From Lichenifustis flavocetrariae (GTDB lineage Bacteria > Pseudomonadota > Alphaproteobacteria > Rhizobiales > Beijerinckiaceae), in contig NZ_JAMOIM010000043.1 of the NCBI RefSeq assembly GCF_026130545.1, forward strand, positions 1 through 41,098: a stretch of DNA of 41,098 bases, written 5' to 3'. The position numbers were made by a program, and so were the translations under genes. The notes under the pieces were generated by a model that saw nothing but the letters and a program-made list of their open reading frames with translations, was not told the DNA's origin and did no database searches. Below are positions 27,677 to 41,003 of the stretch, in pieces. Position 1 is the stretch's first letter, and the number at the start of each line of letters is the position of its first letter.

Positions 27677-28536
27677 ATGCGCCGCTTGCCTTCATGGATC
27701 CAGCCGCCGCCGGACTACAGATCGGCGGCGCCGCGGCGCGAGCGCTTAGCCTGGAACTCGATACCTGGCCAAAACCCGGTCTCGTCAGCCCTTTCGACTG
27801 CGGCAGCCACGACGACATGGACGCGGCCATGCTGCTCCGGAGTATCGCGGTTCTCGAGCCTTTTCTGATCAACCTTGCCGAGGCCGGCGCGGCGGAGGCG
27901 GATATGGCCACCTTACGCAGGATCGGCATTGCGGCCGAAGCCGCAATGCTGCGCGCCACCCGCGGAGTGAACACGCATCGAGGCGCGATCTTCGGGCTGG
28001 GGTTGCTCTGCGCGGCCTGTGGCGCGACCGCGAATGGCCTAGAGCCGAAGGCCGCTCGTTTGGGCAACATCGTGCGCAGCCGCTGGGGCGCGGCCATCCG
28101 CCATATGCCCGTTGATTGCACGAGCCACGGTGCAGTTGCTGTCAGACGCTACGGAGCACGTGGCGCTCGACTCGAAGCGGCTTCCGGCTTTCCTAGTGTG
28201 TATGAGGTGGGGCTACCGGCCCTCAGAGCGGGTCTTGCCCTAAGCGGCGGGGATGCAGAGGCCGCCCGGGTGCAGGCCTGCTTCGCGTTGATCGCCGTTC
28301 TTGATGACACCAACCTGTTGCATCGGGGCGGCTCCGACGGACTGGCGTTTGCGCGGCGGGAGGCCCGACACTTTCTCGAGAGCGGCGGCGTCGGGCTGGC
28401 AGGTTGGCGCGACCGGGCAGCACAAACCCATCGCGCTTTCGTGGAGCGCCATCTCAGTCCCGGCGGAGCGGCGGACGTCCTAGCTATGGCTCTGTTCGTC
28501 TGCTCGGTCGAGGGAAGGCTGCAGGTCGCGGTATGA
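27673..28536 (+). CDS. mdcB: Triphosphoribosyl-dephospho-CoA synthase
   Basis: A 287-residue member of the CitG/MdcB family; it makes the MdcC cofactor precursor from ATP and dephospho-CoA. The family motifs are PKPGLVSPFDCGSHDDMD, GVNTHRGAIFGLGLLCAACG and LDDTNLLHRGG (the last usually TxDTNxxHRGG). The gene sits after mdcG; in Klebsiella and Pseudomonas mdcB directly follows mdcA, so the order here is rearranged. The start and the stop each overlap a neighbour by 4 bases (ATGA). Confidence 0.94.
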   Translation: MNAPLAFMDPAAAGLQIGGAAARALSLELDTWPKPGLVSPFDCGSHDDMDAAMLLRSIAVLEPFLINLAEAGAAEADMATLRRIGIAAEAAMLRATRGVNTHRGAIFGLGLLCAACGATANGLEPKAARLGNIVRSRWGAAIRHMPVDCTSHGAVAVRRYGARGARLEAASGFPSVYEVGLPALRAGLALSGGDAEAARVQACFALIAVLDDTNLLHRGGSDGLAFARREARHFLESGGVGLAGWRDRAAQTHRAFVERHLSPGGAADVLAMALFVCSVEGRLQVAV

Positions 28537-29465
28537 GGCTCACCCTTTTGTGCTCGGGCCAAGGCCGTCAACACGCAGCCATGTTTGCCCTTACAGGACC
28601 AGCCTCTGAAGCCGCGCCCGTGTTCGCCGCCGCAGCAGCAGCCCTAGATGGACAGGATCCGAGAGGCCTCTTCCGCAACGGAGCCGGGGCCACCGAGGCC
28701 AATTGGGTTGCCCAAATCCTGTGCTGCACTCAGGCGTTGGCGGCTTGCGCGGTCCTCGGCGACTTGATTGAGGGGCCGCTGACGATCGCCGGCTATAGCG
28801 TCGGTGAACTTGCCGCTTGGGGTTGCGCCGGCGTTCTGTCGGTCGAGGCGACGCTCCGCCTCGCCCGTCGGCGCGCCGTCGAAATGGACCGGGCTACAGG
28901 CCCGGGCTTCGGGCTTGCGTTCGTGCGCGGGCTGCGGCGCACTTTCGTCGATGCACTTTGCGCCAGATTTGACGCCGAGGTATCAATCATCAACCCAGGT
29001 GAAGCCTATGTGCTCGGCGGAGAACGACAGAGCCTCGAAGCCCTCTGCGAACAAGCGCGCCTGGGCGGAGCAAGCCGAGTGGGGCTGCTTCCCGTCCATG
29101 TCCCGTCTCACACGTCGAGGTTGGCCCCGGCATCGGTCGAGTTCCAGGCAGCGCTCGACGCCGAGCGCCTGGGGTTCATCCGGCCGGACACAGAGCTTCT
29201 CAGTGGTATCGACGGCAGCCGTGTGACTGACCTTCACGCCGGGACCAGAAAGCTTGCTGCCCAGGTCTCAAGAACAATACTCTGGTCAGATTGCATGTCT
29301 TCCTGCATTGAGGCAGGTTCCACCGTGTTCCTCGAGCTCGGTCCAGGAAGAGGCCTTGCTGATATCATCGTCGGCGCACACCCTGAAGTTCAGGCGCGAA
29401 GCCTTGACGAGTTTCGAACGCTCGCTGGCGTGCGTTCATGGGTGAGGAAAGCATTGGAGAAGTAG
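28533..29465 (+). CDS. mdcH: Malonyl-CoA:ACP transacylase of malonate decarboxylase
   Basis: A 310-residue FabD-like acyltransferase that primes MdcC by transferring malonyl from malonyl-CoA. It has LLCSGQGRQHAAMF at the start, the nucleophile elbow GYSVGELAA with Ser89, a later Arg/His pair region (VHVPSHTSRL, catalytic His) and the closing VFLELGPGRGLADI. The ATG at 28533 overlaps the mdcB stop by 4 bases; an in-frame opening upstream lies inside mdcB and is not credible. It is the last gene of the operon. Confidence 0.94.
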   Translation: MRLTLLCSGQGRQHAAMFALTGPASEAAPVFAAAAAALDGQDPRGLFRNGAGATEANWVAQILCCTQALAACAVLGDLIEGPLTIAGYSVGELAAWGCAGVLSVEATLRLARRRAVEMDRATGPGFGLAFVRGLRRTFVDALCARFDAEVSIINPGEAYVLGGERQSLEALCEQARLGGASRVGLLPVHVPSHTSRLAPASVEFQAALDAERLGFIRPDTELLSGIDGSRVTDLHAGTRKLAAQVSRTILWSDCMSSCIEAGSTVFLELGPGRGLADIIVGAHPEVQARSLDEFRTLAGVRSWVRKALEK

Positions 29466-29870: not shown

Positions 29871-30314
29871 TCAGGTTTCGGTCAGCAATTTATGGAGCGA
29901 CACGGCCCCCCGTGTGGCACGAAGCCGACCCGCGAGCACGGGATCACGAAGACACCGGGCGACGCAGGCCATCGATTTGAGTTGCCCCTCCGGGAGCTGT
30001 TCCGGAAGCAGGAGGAGGAACACGAGATCGACGGGCCGCTCGTCGATGGCATCGAACTGGACGGCCGGTTTGAGCAACGCAAAAAGCCCGAAAGGCTTCG
30101 CAATGTTGCCGATCCGTGCGTGTGGCAGGGCGATGCCGCCGCCCAGTCCCGTCGAACCCAGATCCTCGCGCTTGATGAGCGCCTTTGCGATCATCTCATA
30201 ATCGAACTCCAGAAGGGCCGCCGCCCGACGAGCCAATTCCTTTAGGACGCGTCCCTTGTCGGCTTCCCGCAATTCAAACACGGCCTCAGGGCAGAGAAGA
30301 TCCTTTATATCCAT
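29871..30314 (-). CDS. PTS EIIA-Ntr (PtsN)-type phosphocarrier in the kdp gene set
   Basis: About 147 residues with the EIIA fructose/Ntr fold: MDIKDLLCPEAVFELREADKGRVLKELARRAA at the start, and GLGGGIALPHARI with the phospho-accepting His65 (His73 in E. coli PtsN), followed by a terminal helical region. The start is ATG 30314; an in-frame GTG at 30323 adds three residues. It begins 61 bases after the SPFH gene (52 if GTG is used) in the same direction, after kdpE. In E. coli dephosphorylated PtsN binds KdpD and raises kdp expression, and it also controls TrkA. The location here suggests a paralogue devoted to potassium control. The housekeeping ptsN normally lies beside rpoN, which is absent. 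Confidence 0.88.
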   Translation of the reverse strand: MDIKDLLCPEAVFELREADKGRVLKELARRAAALLEFDYEMIAKALIKREDLGSTGLGGGIALPHARIGNIAKPFGLFALLKPAVQFDAIDERPVDLVFLLLLPEQLPEGQLKSMACVARCLRDPVLAGRLRATRGAVSLHKLLTET

Positions 30315-30375
30315 GGCCGGCACTCTTTATCGGTTCTTTGGAACATCCGGGACCCCCCTCCCTCATCCGCTCTCA

Positions 30376-31398
30376 TTATTTTTGCGCCGGGGGCAGGTTC
30401 AACATCGCGAGCGGGCTGGTAGAGCTCCCGAGCACGGTCGAGGGCATTTGTCCGTTCCAGCGATGGGCGGTCTCGTAGGACACAACGACGGCATTGCCAT
30501 TCACGGCCGCGCCGACTTGCTGGATGACCCTCGCTTGCGCTTCGCCGACCAAGCTTGCGGCTTGCGCGTCCCCCTCGGCCCTGAGGATCGAGGCCTCACG
30601 CTGCGAGCGCGCCTGCGCAATGGTCGCCTGCGCCTCGCCATTTGCCTGGGCGATGCGGACCGCCGCTTGCGCGTCGGCCTGCACCTTCTGCTGCTCGCCT
30701 TCGTAGCGGACCTTCACGACGGTGTTCTCAGCGCGGATGGCATCGTTCTTCGCCTGTACGGCCGCCTCCACAGAAGCTTGAAAGCTGGGACTATAGGCGA
30801 TGCTGCTCAGTTGGAGATCAACGAGCTCGATGCCGAAGATGCCGCCGAGCGCTTCGCTCACCCCCTTGCGGATCTCGCCGGCAATCTGCTCGCGATTGGC
30901 CGAGATGCTCACCGTGTTCTGGGTGGAGAACACGCGGAGGACGCGGTCGGCGAGAACCGGGCGGATGTTCTCCGAGATGTCGACGTTGCCGCTACGGCCT
31001 ACGCTGTAGAGGAGTTTCAGGACGGCGGCGGCAGGTATCTTGTAGGAGAGCCCGACGCCGACGTTCACGGCTTGGTTGTCGACTGTATAAACGGTCAGAT
31101 TGCTGAGTTGAAACGTGTCGAGGCTCGTCTGGATCGTGTCGACAGTGTCGATGAACGGCACCTTGTAGTGCAGGCCGGGGCCGACTGGTTCGGCAGTCAC
31201 GATGGTGCCGAGGCGGCGCACGCCGGCCATCTCGGTCGGCTGGACCGTGTAAAAGCTTCCGAAAGAGGCAGCGATCAGGGCGCCGACAGCGACGAGGACC
31301 GCGACTCCGCCCATCGGCACGGGGGGAAGGGTCAGTTTCGGCTTGCCCTGTTGAGGAGCGCCCCAGGGCTGCTGCTCGTTCGACGGAATGACGTTCAT
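30376..31398 (-). CDS. SPFH/band-7 (prohibitin, HflK-like) membrane protein
   Basis: A 340-residue protein. It has a Pro/Gln-rich N-tail and one membrane anchor (MGGVAVLVAVGALIAASFGSFYTV). An SPFH domain follows with VQPTEMAGVRRLGTI, GPGLHYKVPFID, and RPVLADRVLRVFSTQNTVSISANREQIAGEIRKGV; a long Ala/Gln/Glu coiled coil (VRYEGEQQKVQADAQAAVRIAQANGEAQ onward) completes it. Such proteins form large membrane rings that gather or protect membrane complexes, as HflK/C does with FtsH. The gene begins 23 bases after the kdpE stop, so it is very likely in the kdp transcript. Its partner is unknown; KdpD or KdpFABC are natural candidates. Confidence 0.9.
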   Translation of the reverse strand: MNVIPSNEQQPWGAPQQGKPKLTLPPVPMGGVAVLVAVGALIAASFGSFYTVQPTEMAGVRRLGTIVTAEPVGPGLHYKVPFIDTVDTIQTSLDTFQLSNLTVYTVDNQAVNVGVGLSYKIPAAAVLKLLYSVGRSGNVDISENIRPVLADRVLRVFSTQNTVSISANREQIAGEIRKGVSEALGGIFGIELVDLQLSSIAYSPSFQASVEAAVQAKNDAIRAENTVVKVRYEGEQQKVQADAQAAVRIAQANGEAQATIAQARSQREASILRAEGDAQAASLVGEAQARVIQQVGAAVNGNAVVVSYETAHRWNGQMPSTVLGSSTSPLAMLNLPPAQK

Positions 31399-31421
31399 GG
31401 CGATAGCTTTCGTAGAGCGGC

Positions 31422-32132
31422 TCAGGTGTGGGTGGCAAGGTTGGCGGGGGCGGCAAGCCGGTAGCCGACGCCGGCTTCAGTCAGCAGAAGGCGCGGCTGG
31501 GCGGCATCGACCTCGATCTTCTGGCGAAGGCGGCTGACGAAGACCCGGAGATATTGAGCGTGCGCGCCGTGGGTTGGGCCCCAGACTTCGTGGAGGATGT
31601 GCTGATGGGTCAGCATGCGCCCGGCATGACGGGCGAGCAGGTGCAGCAGGTCGTATTCCCGTGGCGTGAGCTTGATAGGCTCGCCCTTGAGCGTGACGCG
31701 ATGGGCGAGGGTGTCCACCCTCAGGTCGCCGGTCTCGAAGACCACGGTGGCGCCGGCCGAAGTGACCGCATGCCGAAGCGCAGTGTTGATGCGCGCGATC
31801 AATTCATCGACCCCAAACGGTTTGCTGACGTAATCATCCGCGCCGGCGTTCAGGAGCGCGACCTTCTCGGCCTCGTTGTCTCGGGCCGACAGGATGACGA
31901 CGGGAACGCTGGACGTCTGGCGGATCGCGGCCAGCACGTCAGAACCATCCATGTCGGTCAGTCCGAGATCGAGGACGATTAATTCGGGTGGCGACACACG
32001 GATCTTCTCCAAGGCTTCGGCGCCCGTGAAGGCCGACGCGACGGTGAACCCCGCCGCGACAAGCGTCGGCCGGAGGAAGCGGTGAATCTGCGGCTCATCG
32101 TCAACGACGAGAATGTAACGCGACGCCGGCAA
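31422..32132 (-). CDS. kdpE: KdpE response regulator
   Basis: A 236-residue OmpR-family regulator. The receiver domain has the acidic pair in VVDDEPQ, the phospho-acceptor Asp55 (LIVLDLGLTDMDG), the Ser/Thr switch (VVILSAR) and YVSKPF with the conserved Lys. The winged-helix domain has LTPREYDLLHLLARHAGRMLTH and the C-terminal YLRVFVSRLRQKIE. It activates kdpFABC on phosphorylation by KdpD. I place the start at TTG 32132 (LPASRYILVVDDE): GAGGAG lies 7 bases upstream and no ATG fits. It overlaps the end of kdpD by 32 bases; longer in-frame openings upstream are antiparallel shadows within kdpD. Confidence 0.93.
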   Translation of the reverse strand: MPASRYILVVDDEPQIHRFLRPTLVAAGFTVASAFTGAEALEKIRVSPPELIVLDLGLTDMDGSDVLAAIRQTSSVPVVILSARDNEAEKVALLNAGADDYVSKPFGVDELIARINTALRHAVTSAGATVVFETGDLRVDTLAHRVTLKGEPIKLTPREYDLLHLLARHAGRMLTHQHILHEVWGPTHGAHAQYLRVFVSRLRQKIEVDAAQPRLLLTEAGVGYRLAAPANLATHT

Positions 32133-34851
32133 GGGCTTGCTCCTCTTCGGCAGCCGGGAATTTGGCTGCACTGGGTTCAGCGACGGGAAGGGCGATGGTG
32201 ATCCGCGTGCCTCGGCCGGCCCGCGCGGGGCTCTCGGCCCGGATGGTGCCACCCATGGCCTCGACGACGCCCTTGGCGATGGCGAGACCCAGGCCGGTGC
32301 CGGCCGGACGTCCGTCGCCGGAACCGAGGCGCGTGAACTTTTCGAAGACGCGGTCGAGATCGGCCGCCGGAATGCCTCGACCCTCGTCCTCGATCGTGAC
32401 GATAACACGCTCGGCCCTGGCTTCTGCCACGACGACGGTCGGTGTGCCGGGTTCGGCATACTTGTCGGCATTGTCGAGGATGTTAAAAAGAACCTGTTCG
32501 AACAGCATCGGATCGCCTCCGACCGGCAATTCCGTTGCCGGCACCCGCGTCTCCACGATCCGAGACGGGAAGGACTTCCTGCTGCGCGTGACGGCGGCCA
32601 TGATCACATCGGCCGTCTCGATCCAGTCCCGACGCAATGCCAAACTACCAGATTCGACGCGCGTCATGTCGAGCAGGTTGGCAACGAAGCGGGTTAGGCG
32701 ACGGGCTTCCTCCACGATGGTCAGGACGAGGTCGTCGCGGTCGGCCTGCTCCATCCGGCCGCCGTATTCACGCAGGCTCGTAGCGGATCCGAGGATCGAG
32801 GATAGCGGTGTGCGCAGGTCGTGGCTGATGGAGGACAGCAGGGTCGTCTGCAATCGCTCCCGCTCGGCGAGCGCCTCGCCTCGCCGCGCGTCGACGACCA
32901 GAATGGCCCGTTCGATCGCCAATGCGCCCTGATCGAGCAGAGCCGCGAACGCCCGCTCCTCCTCGGCCGATAACGGCTTGCCCCGATCGGACGGAGAAAT
33001 GCCGATCGTGCCGATCGTACCGGATGATGTGCGGATCGGATGGAATTGGTAGAAAGCATTGGGGAGGGTGCCGGTGCGCCAGCCCGCGACCTCCGTCCGG
33101 CTGAACGCCCAGCGCGCGGCCGCCCACTCGCTTGGCTGAAGGGTGTCCTCGGGCGGAAATGCCGCCTTGATGGTCAGTTCGCCGGCCTCCGGTCCGTCGC
33201 TCTCGCACAGCAGCATGACGACCTGGCCTCGAATGGCGCCGGCGGTCTGACGGGCCAGGACCCACAGAACATCCTCCATGCTCACCGTGGCCGACAGCTT
33301 GCGGGAGACGTCGTAGAGCGACTGCATGGTTTTCATGCGCGCACGAGCGGCATTCGCCTGATCGCGCACCCGTCCGGCGAGCCCGCCCGTGACCATGCCG
33401 ACGAGCAGGAAGATGATGAGCGTGAAGAATTCGTACGGCGTCGCGATCGAAAAGCTGAAGATCGGAGGGATGAAAAAGAAGTTGTAGGCCAGGAACGACA
33501 GGATGGCGGCTGCTATGGCCGGCCACTGGCCCACCGTGACGGCGCAGCCGAGCACGGCTGCGAGGAAGATCATCGAGAGGTTCGGCAGCGACAGATAGCG
33601 CGAGGCAAGCATGCCAACCAGGACGGCCGCGCCGACCGAGCCCAGCGCCGCTGTCAGCCCGATCGCCAGCGTGTTCCGGGCGGGCCACAACCGTCGCCTT
33701 GCAACCTTAGCGGTTCTCTCACCGACCACGACGTGCACCGCGATGTCGGACGCGCGCCGCAGCAGCATGCCGGACAGCGATCGGCCTCTCACGCGCGCCC
33801 AGAAGGTTGGGCTCGATCGACCGATCACGATCTGGGTTATGTTCTCCCGCCGGGCGAAGCGAAGGATCTCGTCCGGGAGATCGGGACCCGAGAGGCGGGC
33901 TGTGTCCGCTCCCAAGCGCTCGGCAAGCCGCATCGCTTCGTCGATCCGACCGAGCGCAACGGCGTCCGTCATTTCGAAATCGGATCTTTCCAGAGTGACG
34001 GCGACCCACGCCGCATTCAGGCCGTTGGCGAGCCGGCTGGCAGCGCGGACGACCCGCTCGGATGAGGGGTCGGACCCCACGCAGACCAGGATGCGTTCCG
34101 CGGTCGGCCATGCGCCTTCAATCGCGTTGCGGCGCAGGTGATCCACCATCTGGTGGTCGACGCTTTCTGCCGTGCGGCGGAGGGCGAGTTCGCGTAGCGC
34201 CGTAAGGTTGCCGGGCTTGAAGAAGCCGCCGGCAGCGCGCTTGGCGTTCTCCGGCAGGTAGATCCGTCCCTCGCTCAGCCGCGTGATGAGCTCGGCCGGA
34301 GTAATGTCGACGACCACCACCTCGTCGGCCTTGTCGATGACCGTGTCTGGCACCGTCTCCCGGACCAGCACGCCGGTGATGCGAGACACGACATCGGACA
34401 GGCTCTCGAGATGCTGGATATTGACCGCTGTCCAGACATCGATACCGGCGGCCAGAAGCTCCTCGACGTCGAGGTACCGTTTGGGATGCCGACATTCCTC
34501 AGCGTTGGTATGCGCGAGTTCGTCGACGATCAGCAGGGCCGGACGCCGCGCCAGGGCGGCGTCAAGATCGAACTCGCTGAGCTGCGTTCCTTTGTAGGCG
34601 ACGCTCTGGCGGGGCAGAACTTCGAGCCCGTCCAATACGGCCTCGGTCTCGACTCTGCCATGGGTTTCGACGACGCCGACCACGACGTCGAAACGAGCGG
34701 CTTGGAGGCGGCGGGCGCCTGACAGCATGGCGTAGGTCTTCCCAACGCCGGGTGCCGCGCCGAGGAACACCTTGAGGCGGCCCCGACCCTCCTGGCGCGC
34801 GGCAGCCAGCAGGGAATCGGGGTTTGGCCGCGTGTGGCTTGCGGGCGTCAT
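32101..34851 (-). CDS. kdpD: KdpD sensor histidine kinase
   Basis: A 916-residue membrane kinase. The N-terminal KdpD domain has a Walker A (GAAPGVGKTYAML) and LLIVDELAHTNAEE. A universal-stress-type domain follows (about 245-370; ERILVCVGSDPSSERVVRAA). Four membrane helices lie around 400-500, then a GAF-like region, then HisKA with the phospho-acceptor His677 (SISHDLRTPLSSILGSAT). The C-terminal ATPase domain has N, G1 and G2 boxes (NILDNADKYA; IEDEGRGIPAADL; GTGLGLAIAKGV). It senses potassium limitation or osmotic stress and controls KdpE by phosphorylation and dephosphorylation. It starts 56 bases after kdpC. Confidence 0.96.
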   Translation of the reverse strand: MTPASHTRPNPDSLLAAARQEGRGRLKVFLGAAPGVGKTYAMLSGARRLQAARFDVVVGVVETHGRVETEAVLDGLEVLPRQSVAYKGTQLSEFDLDAALARRPALLIVDELAHTNAEECRHPKRYLDVEELLAAGIDVWTAVNIQHLESLSDVVSRITGVLVRETVPDTVIDKADEVVVVDITPAELITRLSEGRIYLPENAKRAAGGFFKPGNLTALRELALRRTAESVDHQMVDHLRRNAIEGAWPTAERILVCVGSDPSSERVVRAASRLANGLNAAWVAVTLERSDFEMTDAVALGRIDEAMRLAERLGADTARLSGPDLPDEILRFARRENITQIVIGRSSPTFWARVRGRSLSGMLLRRASDIAVHVVVGERTAKVARRRLWPARNTLAIGLTAALGSVGAAVLVGMLASRYLSLPNLSMIFLAAVLGCAVTVGQWPAIAAAILSFLAYNFFFIPPIFSFSIATPYEFFTLIIFLLVGMVTGGLAGRVRDQANAARARMKTMQSLYDVSRKLSATVSMEDVLWVLARQTAGAIRGQVVMLLCESDGPEAGELTIKAAFPPEDTLQPSEWAAARWAFSRTEVAGWRTGTLPNAFYQFHPIRTSSGTIGTIGISPSDRGKPLSAEEERAFAALLDQGALAIERAILVVDARRGEALAERERLQTTLLSSISHDLRTPLSSILGSATSLREYGGRMEQADRDDLVLTIVEEARRLTRFVANLLDMTRVESGSLALRRDWIETADVIMAAVTRSRKSFPSRIVETRVPATELPVGGDPMLFEQVLFNILDNADKYAEPGTPTVVVAEARAERVIVTIEDEGRGIPAADLDRVFEKFTRLGSGDGRPAGTGLGLAIAKGVVEAMGGTIRAESPARAGRGTRITIALPVAEPSAAKFPAAEEEQALAGVALHSRR

Positions 34852-34907
34852 GATGCTCGCCAGGTTGTGAGCGGGCTAGGCCTAGGGGAGAGGGCGAAAG
34901 CGACCGT

Positions 34908-35585
34908 TCATTGTGCGGCTGGAGCCGCCGCTGCATTGGCGTTGTCTGCTGGCTTAGTGGTGGAAGACGCCGCTGGAGCCGCCGCCGCGGGCGTCGGGTC
35001 GAGGTCTTCGAGGGCGACGTTCAGCTGGAGGACCTGGACCCGACTATTGCCGAAGAGGGCGGAACCGACGGTATTGTTCGCGACGAGGGCCTGGATCTTG
35101 GCCGCGTCCAGCTTCCGGGCCGACGCGACGCGGCCGATTTGCATCGCCGCATAGGCCGGGGAGATATCCGGATCGAGCCCCGAGGCCGATGTGGTCACGG
35201 CATCCGCCGCGACGGACTTGGCCGGACTGCCGCCGAGAGCCGCCACGGAGGCCTTCACCCGATCGACCAGCTTCTGAGAGGTCGGACCGAGGTTGGAACC
35301 AGAGGAGTTCGCGGCATTGTAGGGCGCGTCCACCGTCTTGGTCGCGTCCTTCGGGTCGGGGGCGCTGGTGGCGGATGGGCGTCCCTGGAAGAACCGATCG
35401 GTGGCGAAGTTCTCGCCGATCAGCGCGGAGCCGACCACTGTACCGTTGCGGGTGATCATGCTGCCATCTGCAGGTCCCTTCATCGCGACCTGGGCGATGC
35501 CGGTGATGGCGAGAGGATAGGCGATCCCGGTGAGGGCTGTGAACAGCACGATCATCGCGATCGCGGGGCGAAGCTGGGAGAGCAT
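34908..35585 (-). CDS. kdpC: KdpC potassium-transporting ATPase subunit C
   Basis: A 225-residue single-span subunit, the K+-ATPase assembly and ATP-affinity factor. The start MLSQLRPAIAMIVLFTALTGIAYPLAITGIAQ is the membrane anchor. The conserved periplasmic region includes VGSALIGENFATDRFFQGRPSAT, NAANSSGSNLGPTS and TTSASGLDPDISPAYAAMQIGRVA. After LQLNVALEDLDP the protein has an Ala/Pro/Thr-rich low-complexity tail of about 30 residues not found in typical KdpC (about 190-200 residues). It follows kdpB by 9 bases. Confidence 0.95.
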   Translation of the reverse strand: MLSQLRPAIAMIVLFTALTGIAYPLAITGIAQVAMKGPADGSMITRNGTVVGSALIGENFATDRFFQGRPSATSAPDPKDATKTVDAPYNAANSSGSNLGPTSQKLVDRVKASVAALGGSPAKSVAADAVTTSASGLDPDISPAYAAMQIGRVASARKLDAAKIQALVANNTVGSALFGNSRVQVLQLNVALEDLDPTPAAAAPAASSTTKPADNANAAAAPAAQ

Positions 35586-35594
35586 GGAGCGACC

Positions 35595-37646
35595 TCAGGC
35601 CAGATGCAGCGTTGAGACGGCAAGATCGATGATCTTGATGCCGATGAATGGGACGACGATGCCGCCGAGCCCGTAGAGGAGGAGGTTGCGTCGCAGCAGC
35701 GCAGCCGCGCCGATCGGTTTGTAGGGCACGCCTTTCAGCGCGAGCGGGATCAGTGCGATGATGATCAGCGCATTGAAGATCACGGCCGAGAGGATGGCCG
35801 AACGCGGCGAGTGAAGCCCCATGACGTTGAGCGCGCCAAGCTCGGGATAGGTGGCGAGGAACAGGGCTGGAATGATCGCGAAGTATTTTGCGACGTCGTT
35901 GGCGATCGAGAAGGTCGTCAGCGAGCCGCGCGTCATCAGCAGTTGCTTGCCGATACCGACCACCTCGATGAGCTTGGTTGGATCGCTGTCCAGATCGACC
36001 ATGTTTCCGGCCTCGCGCGCCGCTTGGGTGCCGGTCTGCATGGCGACTCCCACGTCGGCCTGAGCCAGCGCCGGCGCGTCGTTGGTGCCATCGCCGCACA
36101 TGGCGATGAGGCGTCCACCCTGCTGCTCCTTACGGATATAGGCCAGCTTGTCTTCGGGAGTTGCCTTGGCGAGGAAGTCATCCACGCCCGCCTCGGACGC
36201 GATGGCGGCCGCCGTTACCGGGTTGTCGCCTGTCACCATGACGGTCTTGATGCCCATGGCGCGCAGGGCGGCGAAGCGCTCCTTGATGTCGGGCTTCACC
36301 GTGTCCTTGAGGTGGACGACGCCGAGCAGGCGCTGGTTCTCGGCGACCGCCAGCGGCGTGCCACCCGTGCGGGCGATCTTGTCAACCGCGGCGCGGAAGT
36401 CGGGGGGGCCCCCGCCGTCCCCCAAACCCACGCTGGCCAGCACTGAATCCACCGCGCCCTTGCGAAGCGAGCGGCCTTTCAGGTCGATGCCGGACATGCG
36501 AGTCTGAGCCGTGAAGGGCACGATGGTCGCGCCCGCTTGGGACAGATCCATTTCGGTCAGGCCGTAGCGGCTCTTGGCGAGCGCCACGATGGAACGACCT
36601 TCCGGCGTCTCGTCGGCGAGGCTCGACAACAGCACGGCTTCGGCCAGCGCCTGCTCGGGCACGCCGCTCACGGCAATGAATTCGCTCGGCATGCGATTGC
36701 CGAACGTGATCGTGCCGGTCTTGTCGAGCAGCAACGTGTCGACGTCGCCGGCCGCCTCGACGGCACGGCCCGATGTCGCCACCACGTTGAAGCGGATCAG
36801 GCGGTCCATGCCGGCGATGCCGATGGCCGACAACAGGCCACCGATGGTGGTCGGGATCAGACAGACCAGCAGCGCCACAAGCACGGTCACCGAAAGCGTG
36901 GCACCCGAGTAGAGCGCAACCGGCCACAGCGAAACGCAAACGATCAGGAAGATGATCGTAAGCCCCGAGAGCAGGATCGACAGGGCGAGTTCGTTCGGCG
37001 TCTTCTGCCGTTCTGCGCCCTCGACCAGAGCGATCATGCGATCGAGGAAGGTCGAGCCGGCCGCGGCGGTGACCCGCACCTTGATGCCGTCGGACAGCAC
37101 CATGGTGCCGCCGGTGACAGCCGAGCGATCGCCGCCCGACTCTCGGATCACTGGCGCGGACTCACCGGTGATCGCGGATTCGTTGACCGAGGCGATGCCG
37201 GCCACGACCTCTCCGTCGGAAGGGATCAAATCGCCGGGCTCGACCAGGACGATGTCGCCGACCTTGAGGTCGAGGGCATTGACCTCCTCGAAGGCCCCGT
37301 CGAGGTGCTTGTGGTCAACGAGACGCTTGGCCCGCGTGTCGCTGCGGGTCCTGCGCATGGCATCTGCCTGCGCCTTGCCGCGCCCTTCCGCGACGGCTTC
37401 GGCGAAGTTGGCGAACAGCACCGTGAACCAGAGCCATGCCGCGATTTGGCCCGAGAACAGCGCTTCGCCGTTACCGGTGATGAGGTCGCGTAAGAACAGG
37501 ATCGTGACGCCCAGTGAGACCACCTCGGTGACGAAGATGACCGGGTTCTTGGCGAGGGTTCTTGGATTGAGCTTGCGGAAAGCCTCGATCGCGGCTCGGC
37601 GCGCGATGGCCGGGTCGAACAGGCTTGTGGCTGAACGGGATGCCAT
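35595..37646 (-). CDS. kdpB: KdpB potassium-transporting P-type ATPase subunit
   Basis: A 683-residue P1A-type ATPase, the energy-coupling subunit. The A-domain has [16 protein letters not shown]. The phosphorylation motif [11 protein letters not shown] contains the aspartyl-phosphate Asp308 (Asp307 in E. coli), and the hinge [19 protein letters not shown] and [21 protein letters not shown] complete the set. Its expected role is to hydrolyse ATP and drive K+ import through KdpA. The gene starts 11 bases after kdpA and ends 9 bases before kdpC. Confidence 0.97.
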
Positions 37647-37657
37647 GAAGGACGCTT

Positions 37658-39367
37658 TCAGTAGGCTTTGCCGGCCAGCATCGCGAAATGCTCGACGATC
37701 GGACCAAGAGCGAGGACGGGGAAATACTGGAGCAGGTAGAGGATCACGATGATGCCGAGCAGCAGGCCCACGAAAAGCGGGCCGTCGGTCGGAAAGGTGC
37801 CGACCGAAGCGGGCGCCTTCCGCTTAACGGCCACCGATCCCGCCAAGGCCAGGACCGGCACGACGTAGGCGAAGCGGCCGAAGAACATCGCGAGGCCGAG
37901 GGTCGTGTTGTACCAGAGCGTATTTCCGGTGAGACCGCCGAAAGCCGAGCCGTTATTGGCGGTGGTCGACGCGAAGGCGTAGAGGATCTCACTCAATCCG
38001 TGCGGGCCACTGTTGTTCAGGCTGTCCAGCCCCGTCTTCAGCATCACCGACACGCCGGTAAAGCCGAGCACCAGCAGCGGGTAGATCAGGATCGCGAGCA
38101 TCGCGAGCTTCATCTCGCGGGTCTCGATCTTCTTGCCGAGATATTCCGGCGTGCGGCCCACCATTAGCCCGGCCACGAACACTGTGATCACGGCGAGCAC
38201 CAGGATGCCGTAGATGCCGGCACCGACGCCGCCCGGCGTGATGCAGCCCATGAGCATGTTGAACAGCGGCACCAGCCCCCCAAGCGGGGTAAAACTGTCG
38301 TGCATGGCGACGACAGAGCCTGTGCTGGTCCCCGTCGTGCCGACGCTGAACAAGGCTGTCAGAGCCTGACCGAAACGCAGCTCCTTGCCTTCGAGGTTGC
38401 CGGCCGCGCCATCCACGCCAAGCGCCGTGAGGATCGGATTTCCGAAGGTCTCCGCGGCGTAGAGGACGGTGACGCCGAGAATGAGCACAATGCCCATCGT
38501 GGCGAGAAGGGAACGCCCCTCTCTCCAGTTCCCGACCAGACGACCGAAGGCGATGACGGATGCCACCGGGACGAGCAGCAAGCTGAACGCCTCCAACATC
38601 ACGACCCAGGCGCTCGGACCTTCGAAAGGATGAGCCGAGTTCGCGTTGAAGAACCCACCGCCGTTGGTTCCGAGTTCCTTGATCGCTTCCTGGCTGGCCA
38701 CGGGCCCGACCGAAATCACCTGCTTGGCGCCTTCGAGGGTCGTGGCCTCCACGGAGGCCAGCAGCGTCTGGGGAATACCGCCTGCCACCATGACCAGCGC
38801 AAGCACGATCGACAGGGGAAGCAGCAAATAGAGAACGCCCCGCGTGAGATCGACCCAGAAGTTACCGATCGTCTTGGCTTCCGAGCGGGTGAAGGCACGG
38901 ATCAGCGCGAACGCCATGGCAAGGCCGGTCGCGGCCGATACGAAGTTGTGGACGGTGAGACCGGCCATCTGGGTCAGATGGCTCATCGTGGTCTCGCCGC
39001 CGTAGTTCTGCCAGTTCGTGTTGGTGATGAAGCTGACGGCGGAATTGAAGGCGAGGGCGGGATCGACGCCGTCAAAGCCCTGCGGATTGAGCGGCAGATA
39101 ACCTTGCAGGCGTTGCAGCGCGTAGAGGCTGAACAGGCCGGCGGCGCTGAAAGCCAGCATGGCCAGCGTGTAGCTGCGCCAGCCTTGCTCGCGCTTCGCA
39201 TCCACGCCTGACAAGGCATAGAAGACCCTCTCGACGGGCGCGATCACCGGAGTCATGAACGTCCGCTCGCCCGACATGACCTTGGCGATGTAGCGCCCAA
39301 GCGGAATGGCCGCGGCCACGACCGCGACGAGCACCAATAGAATCTGCAGCCAACCTAATACGGTCAT
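37658..39367 (-). CDS. kdpA: KdpA potassium channel-like subunit
   Basis: A 569-residue superfamily-of-K+-transporters subunit with ten membrane segments. The four selectivity-filter loops are visible: [50 protein letters not shown] and [13 protein letters not shown]. It binds K+ at high affinity and passes it to KdpB. The ATG at 39367 gives the expected start MTVLGWLQI. It lies 38 bases after kdpF. Confidence 0.97.
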
Positions 39368-39405
39368 GGCATCACCTTCGCGAACCGTCGCCGGTCTCGC
39401 GTCCT

Positions 39406-39492
39406 TCAGAAGCGTTCGGGGTGGATCAGCGTGTAAAGGAGGTAGAGGCCGAGCGCGGCGGCCACGACCAGTCCTGCGAAAGGTTCGAGCAT
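39406..39492 (-). CDS. kdpF: KdpF small membrane subunit
   Basis: A 28-residue hydrophobic peptide ([20 protein letters not shown], ending TLIHPERF), matching the one-helix KdpF subunit that stabilises the KdpABC complex. The Leu-Tyr-Leu-Leu-Tyr-x-Leu-x-x-Pro-Glu-Arg-Phe end is typical of the family. A GAGG site lies 5 bases upstream of the ATG. It sits between the 27-residue gene upstream and kdpA. Confidence 0.9.
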
Positions 39493-39499
39493 GGCGGCC

Positions 39500-39583
39500 T
39501 CACATCCGGTCGCAGGCGGAGGCGTAGGCGACCGTCGTTCCGAAAAGGGCGATGCCAAGGACGATGAAGACAAGATCGAGCAT
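39500..39583 (-). CDS. 27-residue membrane mini-protein ahead of kdpF
   Basis: A 27-residue frame: MLDLVFIVLGIALFGTTVAY then ASACDRM. One hydrophobic helix follows a single acidic residue, and the end 'CDR(L/M)' resembles small hypothetical proteins seen ahead of kdpF in other alphaproteobacteria (recalled, not checked). It ends 7 bases before kdpF in the same direction. A weak GGA site precedes the ATG. It is a second single-helix peptide in the same operon and might pair with KdpA/KdpF, but this is inference. Confidence 0.7.
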   Translation of the reverse strand: MLDLVFIVLGIALFGTTVAYASACDRM

Positions 39584-39667
39584 GAGCGTGGTCCGAGCGG
39601 CCCGAGCGGGCGAAGCTGGTTTATCGCTCGAAATCGCGTGAACGTTCGATACGCAATGCGGCGCTCC

Positions 39668-39686
39668 GATGTAAACAATGCATAAA
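39668..39686 (-). promoter_or_regulatory. Candidate KdpE operator upstream of the kdp operon
   Basis: Read on the minus strand, TTTATGCATTGTTTACATC matches the E. coli KdpE-binding segment TTTATACTTTTTTTACACC (recalled from the literature) at 15 of 19 positions. It lies 85 bases before the first small gene, a normal distance for an activator site. Direction and spacing fit a KdpE-activated promoter. Confidence 0.6.
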
Positions 39687-39809
39687 GAAAAGCGTGAGCC
39701 CACCAAAGCGACTGCAATCGGAAACTGATGAACTTCCGATTTCTTGGTTTTGTTATGAATTGTCTATGCGGCAGGTCGTTCTCACGTCTCGATTGGTAAC
39801 GCCGAAGCG

Positions 39810-40079
39810 ATGCATAGTCAGCGAACGCCACGGCGGCGCTGGATTACCTCGATGTTGCGACTTGCATGCGAACCTGCTGAGGCCAAGACCACGCGCGCCG
39901 AGCCGCGCTTCGTGGTCGGTCAGGACGCCAGCGGCTGCTGGCTGGCAATCGAGACCCGCAACCTTGGCGGCGGCATCTTCAAGAGCCGAGAGGACGCGCT
40001 TCACTTCGTCGACTTCGAGACGGGGCATCGCCCGGGTTCCATCGAACTGTCAACCGAGCCGTTGAAACTCATGTTCTGA
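39810..40079 (+). CDS. Small conserved-looking protein of unknown function
   Basis: Up to 89 residues, soluble. The core RFVVGQDASGCWLAIETRN then LGGGIFKSREDALHFVDFETGH reads like a compact beta-beta-alpha domain (compare short DUF2188-like folds, weakly). No signal peptide or membrane segment is present. The start is uncertain: ATG 39810, or the internal ATG 39852 (MLRLACEPAEAK), neither with a good ribosome-binding site. It is divergent from kdp and 9 bases upstream of the next gene. Confidence 0.6.
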   Translation: MHSQRTPRRRWITSMLRLACEPAEAKTTRAEPRFVVGQDASGCWLAIETRNLGGGIFKSREDALHFVDFETGHRPGSIELSTEPLKLMF

Positions 40080-40088
40080 GGAACCGGT

Positions 40089-41003
40089 ATGTCCGACCTC
40101 GACGTCTTCCGGCGGGATTTTTCGGGGATTTTGACCGGGTGTGCCAACGCCCGCCGGGCGTCGCTATGCGGCGGCAGTGGGAGCGGCGAGGATCTCAAGA
40201 TCATGGCGCTCTTCGAGCGGCTCGCTCGGGAAGCGGAGACCATCGATCCGGCCGTGTTCGCAGGCTTGCGCGCCGTGACTGAACAGGGTCTCGCCACGCG
40301 GCACTTCATCCCCCGACGCGAAGCGCTGCTGGCGCAGGTCGGCGTTCTCTACTGGCCGAAGGATGTCGTGGACCTCGTCCGATGGATCGCCGTTCAATCC
40401 TCGGAAGACCTCGACCTTTGTCGAAAGCCGGTCCCGATCCTGTCACCGGCGACACAACCTCGCCGGCACGCCGGCTTGGATCCCGCCAGAAGACGCCGTG
40501 ACATTTCCTACGGCCGGGCAAATGACTTCTACGCAGGGTTCGGCATCGTTGCCCTGCTGCTGTCGCTCTGGAACGTAACGCTTGCGTTCGGACAAATGCA
40601 CGATCGCGCCTTCGTGGCCGGGCACGCGACCGTGCCGGCGACCATCGTCTCCATCGAGCCCACGAGCGTCGGCAAAAGCAGCGGCTTGGCCCGCGACGTC
40701 GTTCTCACCTTCCAGCAGCCCCATGGCGAGATCTGCCGCGTGGTGTGGCACGCCGCCTTGCCGTCGTTCGAAGGGGCGCCGGGAGCATCACTGCCGGTGG
40801 TGCCCCGATCCTCGGCTTGCGAGGTGCCAATAATCCCCTCCCGTATCGGCGATCCCATGCAGACGTTCACCCTCGCGGCGGTGCTGATGGCGGGCGGCTT
40901 GGTGTCCCTGCATATGTGGGGTTGGCTGTTGCGGCATCCGCCGCGACCGTTTTTTCAGTCGTTGTGGCTGCCTCCTGAAAGTCGACGCCATGATCCCGCT
41001 TAG
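40089..41003 (+). CDS. Predicted membrane protein of unknown function
   Basis: A 304-residue protein. The first ~125 residues are soluble and helical (LFERLAREAETIDPAVFAGL; TRHFIPRREALLAQVGVLYWP). Two hydrophobic helices follow, about 150-170 (AGFGIVALLLSLWNVTLAF) and about 262-282 (FTLAAVLMAGGLVSLHMWGWLL), with a beta-rich stretch between (VPATIVSIEPTSVGKSSGL... VVLTFQQPHGE). The second half resembles DUF3592-type proteins; the first half is not recognised. GAGG lies 6 bases upstream of the ATG. It probably forms a transcription unit with the 89-residue gene. Confidence 0.65.
   Translation: MSDLDVFRRDFSGILTGCANARRASLCGGSGSGEDLKIMALFERLAREAETIDPAVFAGLRAVTEQGLATRHFIPRREALLAQVGVLYWPKDVVDLVRWIAVQSSEDLDLCRKPVPILSPATQPRRHAGLDPARRRRDISYGRANDFYAGFGIVALLLSLWNVTLAFGQMHDRAFVAGHATVPATIVSIEPTSVGKSSGLARDVVLTFQQPHGEICRVVWHAALPSFEGAPGASLPVVPRSSACEVPIIPSRIGDPMQTFTLAAVLMAGGLVSLHMWGWLLRHPPRPFFQSLWLPPESRRHDPA

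Follow-up and report, generated by a model that had tools for sequence, protein, structure and literature searches.

The contig NZ_JAMOIM010000043.1 of Lichenifustis flavocetrariae, one of the 180 contigs of a 7.5-Mb draft genome and analysed here in its entirety (41 kb, hereafter the window), carries on its minus strand the potassium-transport genes kdpF-A-B-C-D-E, followed by a gene for an SPFH (band-7) protein and then by a gene for an EIIA-Ntr protein of the nitrogen phosphotransferase system (PTS-Ntr), the whole running from 39492 down to 29871. We favour, with a probability of about 0.5, the explanation that this is a K+-starvation operon of the known kdpFABCDE-ptsN2 kind, which holds an SPFH gene between kdpE and ptsN2 and represents one of two kdp copies of the genome. 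With PtsN2, an arrangement already known is seen in one more lineage, and the SPFH gene beside kdp is the unusual half of the finding. If functional, it would be a case of a bacterial SPFH protein for which genome context suggests the client, namely the P-type ATPase that pumps K+ together with its sensor kinase, and would thereby offer a tractable test of scaffold function.

The gene order and the gaps given by the original prediction were borne out by the reading frames, Pfam and NCBIfam. The SPFH protein (30376..31398, minus strand; 340 residues), a member of a rare family, matches PF01145 (Band_7; E 1.7e-24, 87.3 bits against a cut-off of 23.6), and the EIIA protein (29871..30314, minus strand, with an alternative GTG start at 30323) matches PF00359 (PTS_EIIA_2; E 4.5e-21, 75.8 bits against 27); for the latter, the ATG at 30314 looks better as a start, since a purine-rich stretch precedes it (judged by eye). 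The gap between kdpE and the SPFH gene is 23 bases, and that between the SPFH and EIIA genes is 52 or 61 bases, depending on the EIIA start. The EIIA gene shares its strand with kdpABCDE at tight gaps, but the SPFH gene intervenes. Beyond the EIIA gene, an acyl-transferase-like gene (28404-29465; PF00698 at 31.6 bits, slightly below the cut-off of 32.7) runs towards it, so that the cluster ends with the EIIA gene. Terminator-like sites were looked for on the minus strand from kdpE to the EIIA gene and none was seen; because of this absence and the tight same-strand packing, we favour the view that kdp, SPFH and ptsN2 may be co-transcribed.

Upstream on the same strand, all members of the KdpFABC-KdpDE operon are present and in order: KdpF (39406..39492; PF09604 E 1.4e-9, TIGR02115 over cut-off), KdpA (37658..39367; Pfam E 1.8e-234 and NCBIfam), KdpB (35595..37646; NCBIfam TIGR01497, 1036.7 bits, over cut-off), KdpC (34908..35585; PF02669 E 5.6e-62), the sensor kinase KdpD (32101..34851; KdpD domain with Pfam E 7.7e-93, then Usp, DUF4118, GAF-like, HisKA and HATPase_c) and the response regulator KdpE (31422..32132; Pfam and NCBIfam), which uses a TTG start and overlaps the end of kdpD. 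The GAF-like match of KdpD is slightly below its cut-off (26.7 against 27 bits), and KdpD and KdpE are below the E. coli-type equivalog cut-offs (740.9 against 1123 and 217.5 against 325 bits, respectively). The operon had been predicted to extend over 29871..39583; its gene order stands, but position 39583 opens the frame of a distinct peptide of 27 residues, and KdpF starts at 39492.

The EIIA protein is very probably a PtsN2. Three PF00359 genes were found in the genome, i.e., the kdp-linked gene, one after rpoN-hpf on contig C125, which is the canonical ptsN of the genome, and one beside an EIIC-GAT permease gene; the kdp-linked gene as the only ptsN of the genome is therefore rejected, and it is indeed an extra copy, as had been supposed. 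Its product is below the curated cut-off of the PtsN equivalog TIGR01419 (97 against 138.7 bits) and, judged from its sequence, is a paralogue rather than PtsN proper, which keeps the predicted phospho-histidine (His65, numbered from the ATG at 30314) in alignment with the other EIIAs. In a tree of 41 EIIAs, built without C_L136 (a frame of 699 aa with a weak EIIA match) and C_L120 (its EIIA is apparently identical to the C_L128 one), the window protein falls among the kdp-linked EIIAs of Lichenibacterium minor, Methylobacterium sp. BTF04 and others (90/87, not starred), on a branch that also holds one non-kdp EIIA (C_L030, beside an antiporter operon), and the canonical ptsN of the genome falls in a separate starred group (97/89) of 20 non-kdp EIIAs. 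Note that on the Rhodovastum atsumiense plasmid RHOApa (L030 8971-9450), an EIIA gene lies immediately before a monovalent cation/H+ antiporter operon.

The position of this EIIA gene recurs. We sampled 199 genomes of the order, 69 of which had a KdpD over cut-off, and surveyed all 70 kdpD loci of 68 genomes, the window genome excluded; an EIIA gene lies immediately after kdpE on the same strand in 11 of them. Five loci (L049, L061, L095, L104 and L109) ended less than 1.5 kb past kdpE, and nine covered less than 1.5 kb upstream of kdpA or did not show kdpA, so that an EIIA or SPFH gene could escape at these places. The same EIIA-after-kdpE arrangement occurs in Rhizobium leguminosarum (L028) and Sinorhizobium fredii (L119). 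On the EIIA tree, kdp linkage requires 2 changes, a count compatible with a single origin that does not establish one clade; on the KdpB tree, from which L079 and L082 are absent as these loci hold no KdpB, the ptsN2 label changes 11 times, with at least 8 of these changes forced by starred branches, and gain or loss of ptsN2 by kdp operons has therefore been frequent. A ptsN copy inside the kdpDE cluster has been named ptsN2, and about 10% of alphaproteobacterial genomes are reported to have a second ptsN gene that shares an operon with kdpABCDE (PMC13104625). The EIIA half of the finding is therefore known, and the EIIA input of the original prediction corresponds to this PtsN2 operon.

We hold with moderate confidence, by analogy with relatives, that the EIIA protein acts on KdpD here. 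Indeed, both PtsN1 and PtsN2 of S. fredii are reported to bind the GAF region of KdpD (PMC9239096), and in R. leguminosarum 3841 the expression of kdpABC is reported to depend on EIIA-Ntr (PMC3665714). Low K+ would thus lead KdpD and KdpE to switch on the operon, and the pump would be made together with extra PtsN2. The phosphate on PtsN2 would come from PtsP and a carrier of the HPr family, whose genes lie elsewhere in the genome. In its unphosphorylated form, PtsN2, which is described as binding KdpD in relatives, would do so here and raise KdpE output; PtsN2 and KdpD would then form a feed-forward link from the state of PTS-Ntr to K+ uptake. In this respect, the proposal of an operon with its own PTS-Ntr input gains from the extra EIIA gene, its recurring position and the S. 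fredii binding results, but its description as a ‘self-contained’ regulon does not hold. The genome carries a GAF-domain PtsP, an HPr-EI fusion and an HPr gene beside an EIIA-Man gene and an HPr-kinase-like gene, so that the phosphate would have to be supplied by PtsP and HPr-family proteins encoded outside the operon; the second kdp operon has neither of the two added genes; and PtsN1 is described as the major homologue in S. fredii (PMC9239096). As for the SPFH protein, if it is made together with the pump, it would most likely assemble in the membrane and could influence how stable the Kdp proteins are or how they cluster.

The window genome contains two kdpD genes and two kdp operons, and in the second operon (L006), neither an SPFH nor an EIIA gene was found after kdpE. 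The DNA of L006 is similar to the window in two blocks spanning 31456 to 39585 (75% and 79% identical), and the SPFH-EIIA pair starts just past the end of the similar block. On the KdpB tree (quick method, single support value), the window and L006 copies are sisters (99*), the next being the L123 copy of L. minor. Because of this sister grouping and of the DNA similarity, the window kdp genes look like a within-lineage duplicate, as if both kdp operons had arisen by segment duplication. Divergent upstream genes are also common to both operons (window 31456-40251; L006 8129-17073).

The SPFH protein, which has a hydrophobic stretch near its N-terminus (by eye), has few relatives: its best other match inside the window genome is 28% identical, and the next best among the 199 genomes of the order is 38% identical. 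A scan of 84,980 species genomes, which relies on exact peptide patterns, found ten relatives, six at 25–31% identity and four at 71–81%, the latter in Rhizobium lusitanum, Rhizobium sp. BK313, Methylobacterium sp. BTF04 and L. minor. In BTF04 and L. minor, the SPFH gene lies beside kdp on the opposite strand (divergent), upstream of kdpA, at a distance of ~ 0.5 kb in L. minor. Thus, SPFH is beside kdp in three of the five known carrier genomes, in two arrangements and in different KdpB lineages, and all five carriers have a kdp operon with EIIA after kdpE (both operons in BTF04). The SPFH-kdp link is narrow, yet unlikely to reflect random placement: by our own rough estimate, two of the four other carriers would stand beside kdp by chance with a probability well under 1%, although these two placements may go back to a single ancestral arrangement. 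A profile made of 15 SPFH sequences was applied to the 70 surveyed kdp loci and to ten chosen ones, 80 in all, and matched in the window, BTF04 and L. minor only; as a control, it recovered the SPFH genes of eight loci where one was already known, of which seven had contributed rows to the profile and L032 had not. Note that R. lusitanum encodes, ~ 2 kb from its SPFH gene, a protein of 290 residues whose sole domain is DUF4118, the membrane domain of KdpD type (L018 6967-7839).

More distant relatives lie elsewhere. Around seven of them (29–38% identical; L033-L039), no kdp match was found in the 17–18 kb fetched, and plasmid relatives (53 records) were all less than 60% identical (at most 32% among the 40 matches listed), with no annotated kdp gene in the single plasmid SPFH neighbourhood examined. 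The nearest solved chains by profile are prohibitin, HflC and stomatin; an HflC or HflK identity is rejected, as the protein is far below the equivalog cut-offs (62.4 against 134.4 and 54.9 against 159.4 bits, respectively), and its AlphaFold model is poor (mean predicted local distance difference test score of 54, from 4 sequences). No literature pairing KdpFABC with SPFH was found among open-licence papers, so that print may hold some, and word searches combining kdp or potassium with SPFH-family terms gave no kdp term among the matches listed; a further combination matched a single paper, which concerns Campylobacter. The SPFH proteins of P. aeruginosa are reported to show a patchy distribution and varied contexts, in a paper whose main text does not contain ‘kdp’ or ‘potassium’ (PMC13086221).

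The favoured explanation must be weighed against several contrary observations. The profile matched in none of the 70 other kdp loci, as far as these were fetched, and a linkage common in the order is therefore rejected. Within the fetched flanks, two of the five carriers (the two Rhizobium) have no kdp operon near SPFH; in BTF04, ~ 3.5 kb with transposase-like genes (by eye) separate SPFH from kdpA; and the L. minor gene (L021 10001-10914) is broken, with pieces in different frames and a part missing, either as a pseudogene or through an assembly error. The EIIA gene also differs from its surroundings by a third-codon G+C of 0.70, against 0.80–0.85 in the six genes measured upstream, hinting that it may have a separate origin. 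At the level of protein contact, the change of Asp517 to Phe in the S. fredii KdpD is reported to abolish PtsN binding (PMC9239096); this residue aligns with Ser in the window KdpD (alignment by eye), and with Ala in two further KdpDs, one of which is encoded in L. minor next to a ptsN2, so that the window KdpD need not make this contact. Lastly, a weak promoter-like match (9/12, 30402-30375) stands before the EIIA gene; chance alone would give 0.4 such matches over the 2.7 kb scanned.

The main alternative, with real weight if less than an even chance, is that the SPFH gene is a passenger, i.e., a sporadic accessory gene beside a duplicated and mobile kdp region, co-transcribed without acting on Kdp. 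Its rarity, its absence from the 70 surveyed loci, its location away from kdp in the two Rhizobium and its broken frame in L. minor all fit this alternative. A doubled kdp operon also occurs in each of the three genomes that have SPFH beside kdp, but in only 2 of the 68 other genomes with kdp, which could reflect a region that moves. Against it, the gene is found beside kdp again in two other species, where both the arrangement and the KdpB lineage differ, and all five carriers have kdp-ptsN2. The same recurrence and the same shared ptsN2 led us to consider that this rare SPFH family may serve Kdp systems of the PtsN2 type as a dedicated scaffold in the membrane or as a partner in quality control, so that some alphaproteobacteria would have a K+ module in three parts, namely the pump with its sensor, the PTS-Ntr input and an SPFH platform; this reading remains speculative and, on balance, unlikely. 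More generally, our confidence that the SPFH protein could act on Kdp is low: the original idea that it sets KdpD activity draws from the two other species a suggestion only, and finds no echo in the surveyed loci.

It is improbable that the EIIA protein works mainly on other targets (e.g., ABC transporters or as an NPr phosphate sink), with its place in the operon serving only for expression under K+ limitation. PTS-Ntr of R. leguminosarum is reported to control ABC transport as well (PMC3665714), and Gly-Lys follows the phospho-histidine in 18 of the 24 other EIIAs but in none of the 19 kdp-linked ones. However, the PHAR motif of the window EIIA also occurs in two of the 24 non-kdp EIIAs (one next to raiA), and PHAT in one, so that the PHA/PHGK difference is rejected as a kdp-specific mark, and both the recurring kdp position and the reported binding of PtsN2 to KdpD in S. 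fredii (PMC9239096) favour KdpD as the target. A separate promoter for SPFH or EIIA, with a function apart from kdp, seems most improbable: it could call on the single promoter-like match and on the divergent SPFH genes of two relatives, but the short same-strand gaps and the lack of any terminator-like site seen speak for the favoured single operon.

Upstream of the true KdpF, the minus strand encodes an unannotated hydrophobic peptide of 27 residues (39500..39583), ending in ACDRM, which is conserved in the kdp loci of the order. A simple filter picked out a similar candidate peptide in 56 of the 76 kdp loci with enough upstream sequence (among 80 examined), and a filter of the same kind found KdpF in 55 of the 76; the peptide was seen in L006, L121-L123, L126 and many of L040-L109. 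In all 33 close pairs (from 52 sequences), non-synonymous differences per site were fewer than synonymous ones (means of 0.09 and 0.34), against only 8 and 3 of the 33 pairs in the two shifted frames; judged from these comparisons, the peptide is under purifying selection specific to its frame. It matched nothing over cut-off in Pfam or NCBIfam. Across a phylum-wide sample of 30 kdpA loci, the peptide was present in 8 of 11 loci of the order, in 1 of 3 from other orders of the class and in 0 of 16 outside the class, the last being a weak figure since the same filter missed KdpF in those 16 too. This peptide may be a second small subunit or a regulator of the Kdp pump.

When compared to known systems, the window operon has the core pump and KdpDE in common with kdpFABCDE of E. 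coli, a locus which, to our knowledge, has neither ptsN2 nor SPFH. With prohibitin, HflK-HflC and stomatin, the window SPFH protein shares the Band_7 domain and the N-terminal-proximal hydrophobic stretch; unlike HflK-HflC, it is encoded next to kdpE and EIIA and not next to a second SPFH gene, besides scoring below the equivalog cut-offs. The alphaproteobacterial kdpFABCDE-ptsN2 operons of R. leguminosarum and S. fredii have the same genes in the same order around kdp, with an EIIA-Ntr paralogue at the 3′ end, and the window operon differs from them by the SPFH gene between kdpE and ptsN2 and by its other KdpB lineage, sister to the second kdp copy of its own genome.

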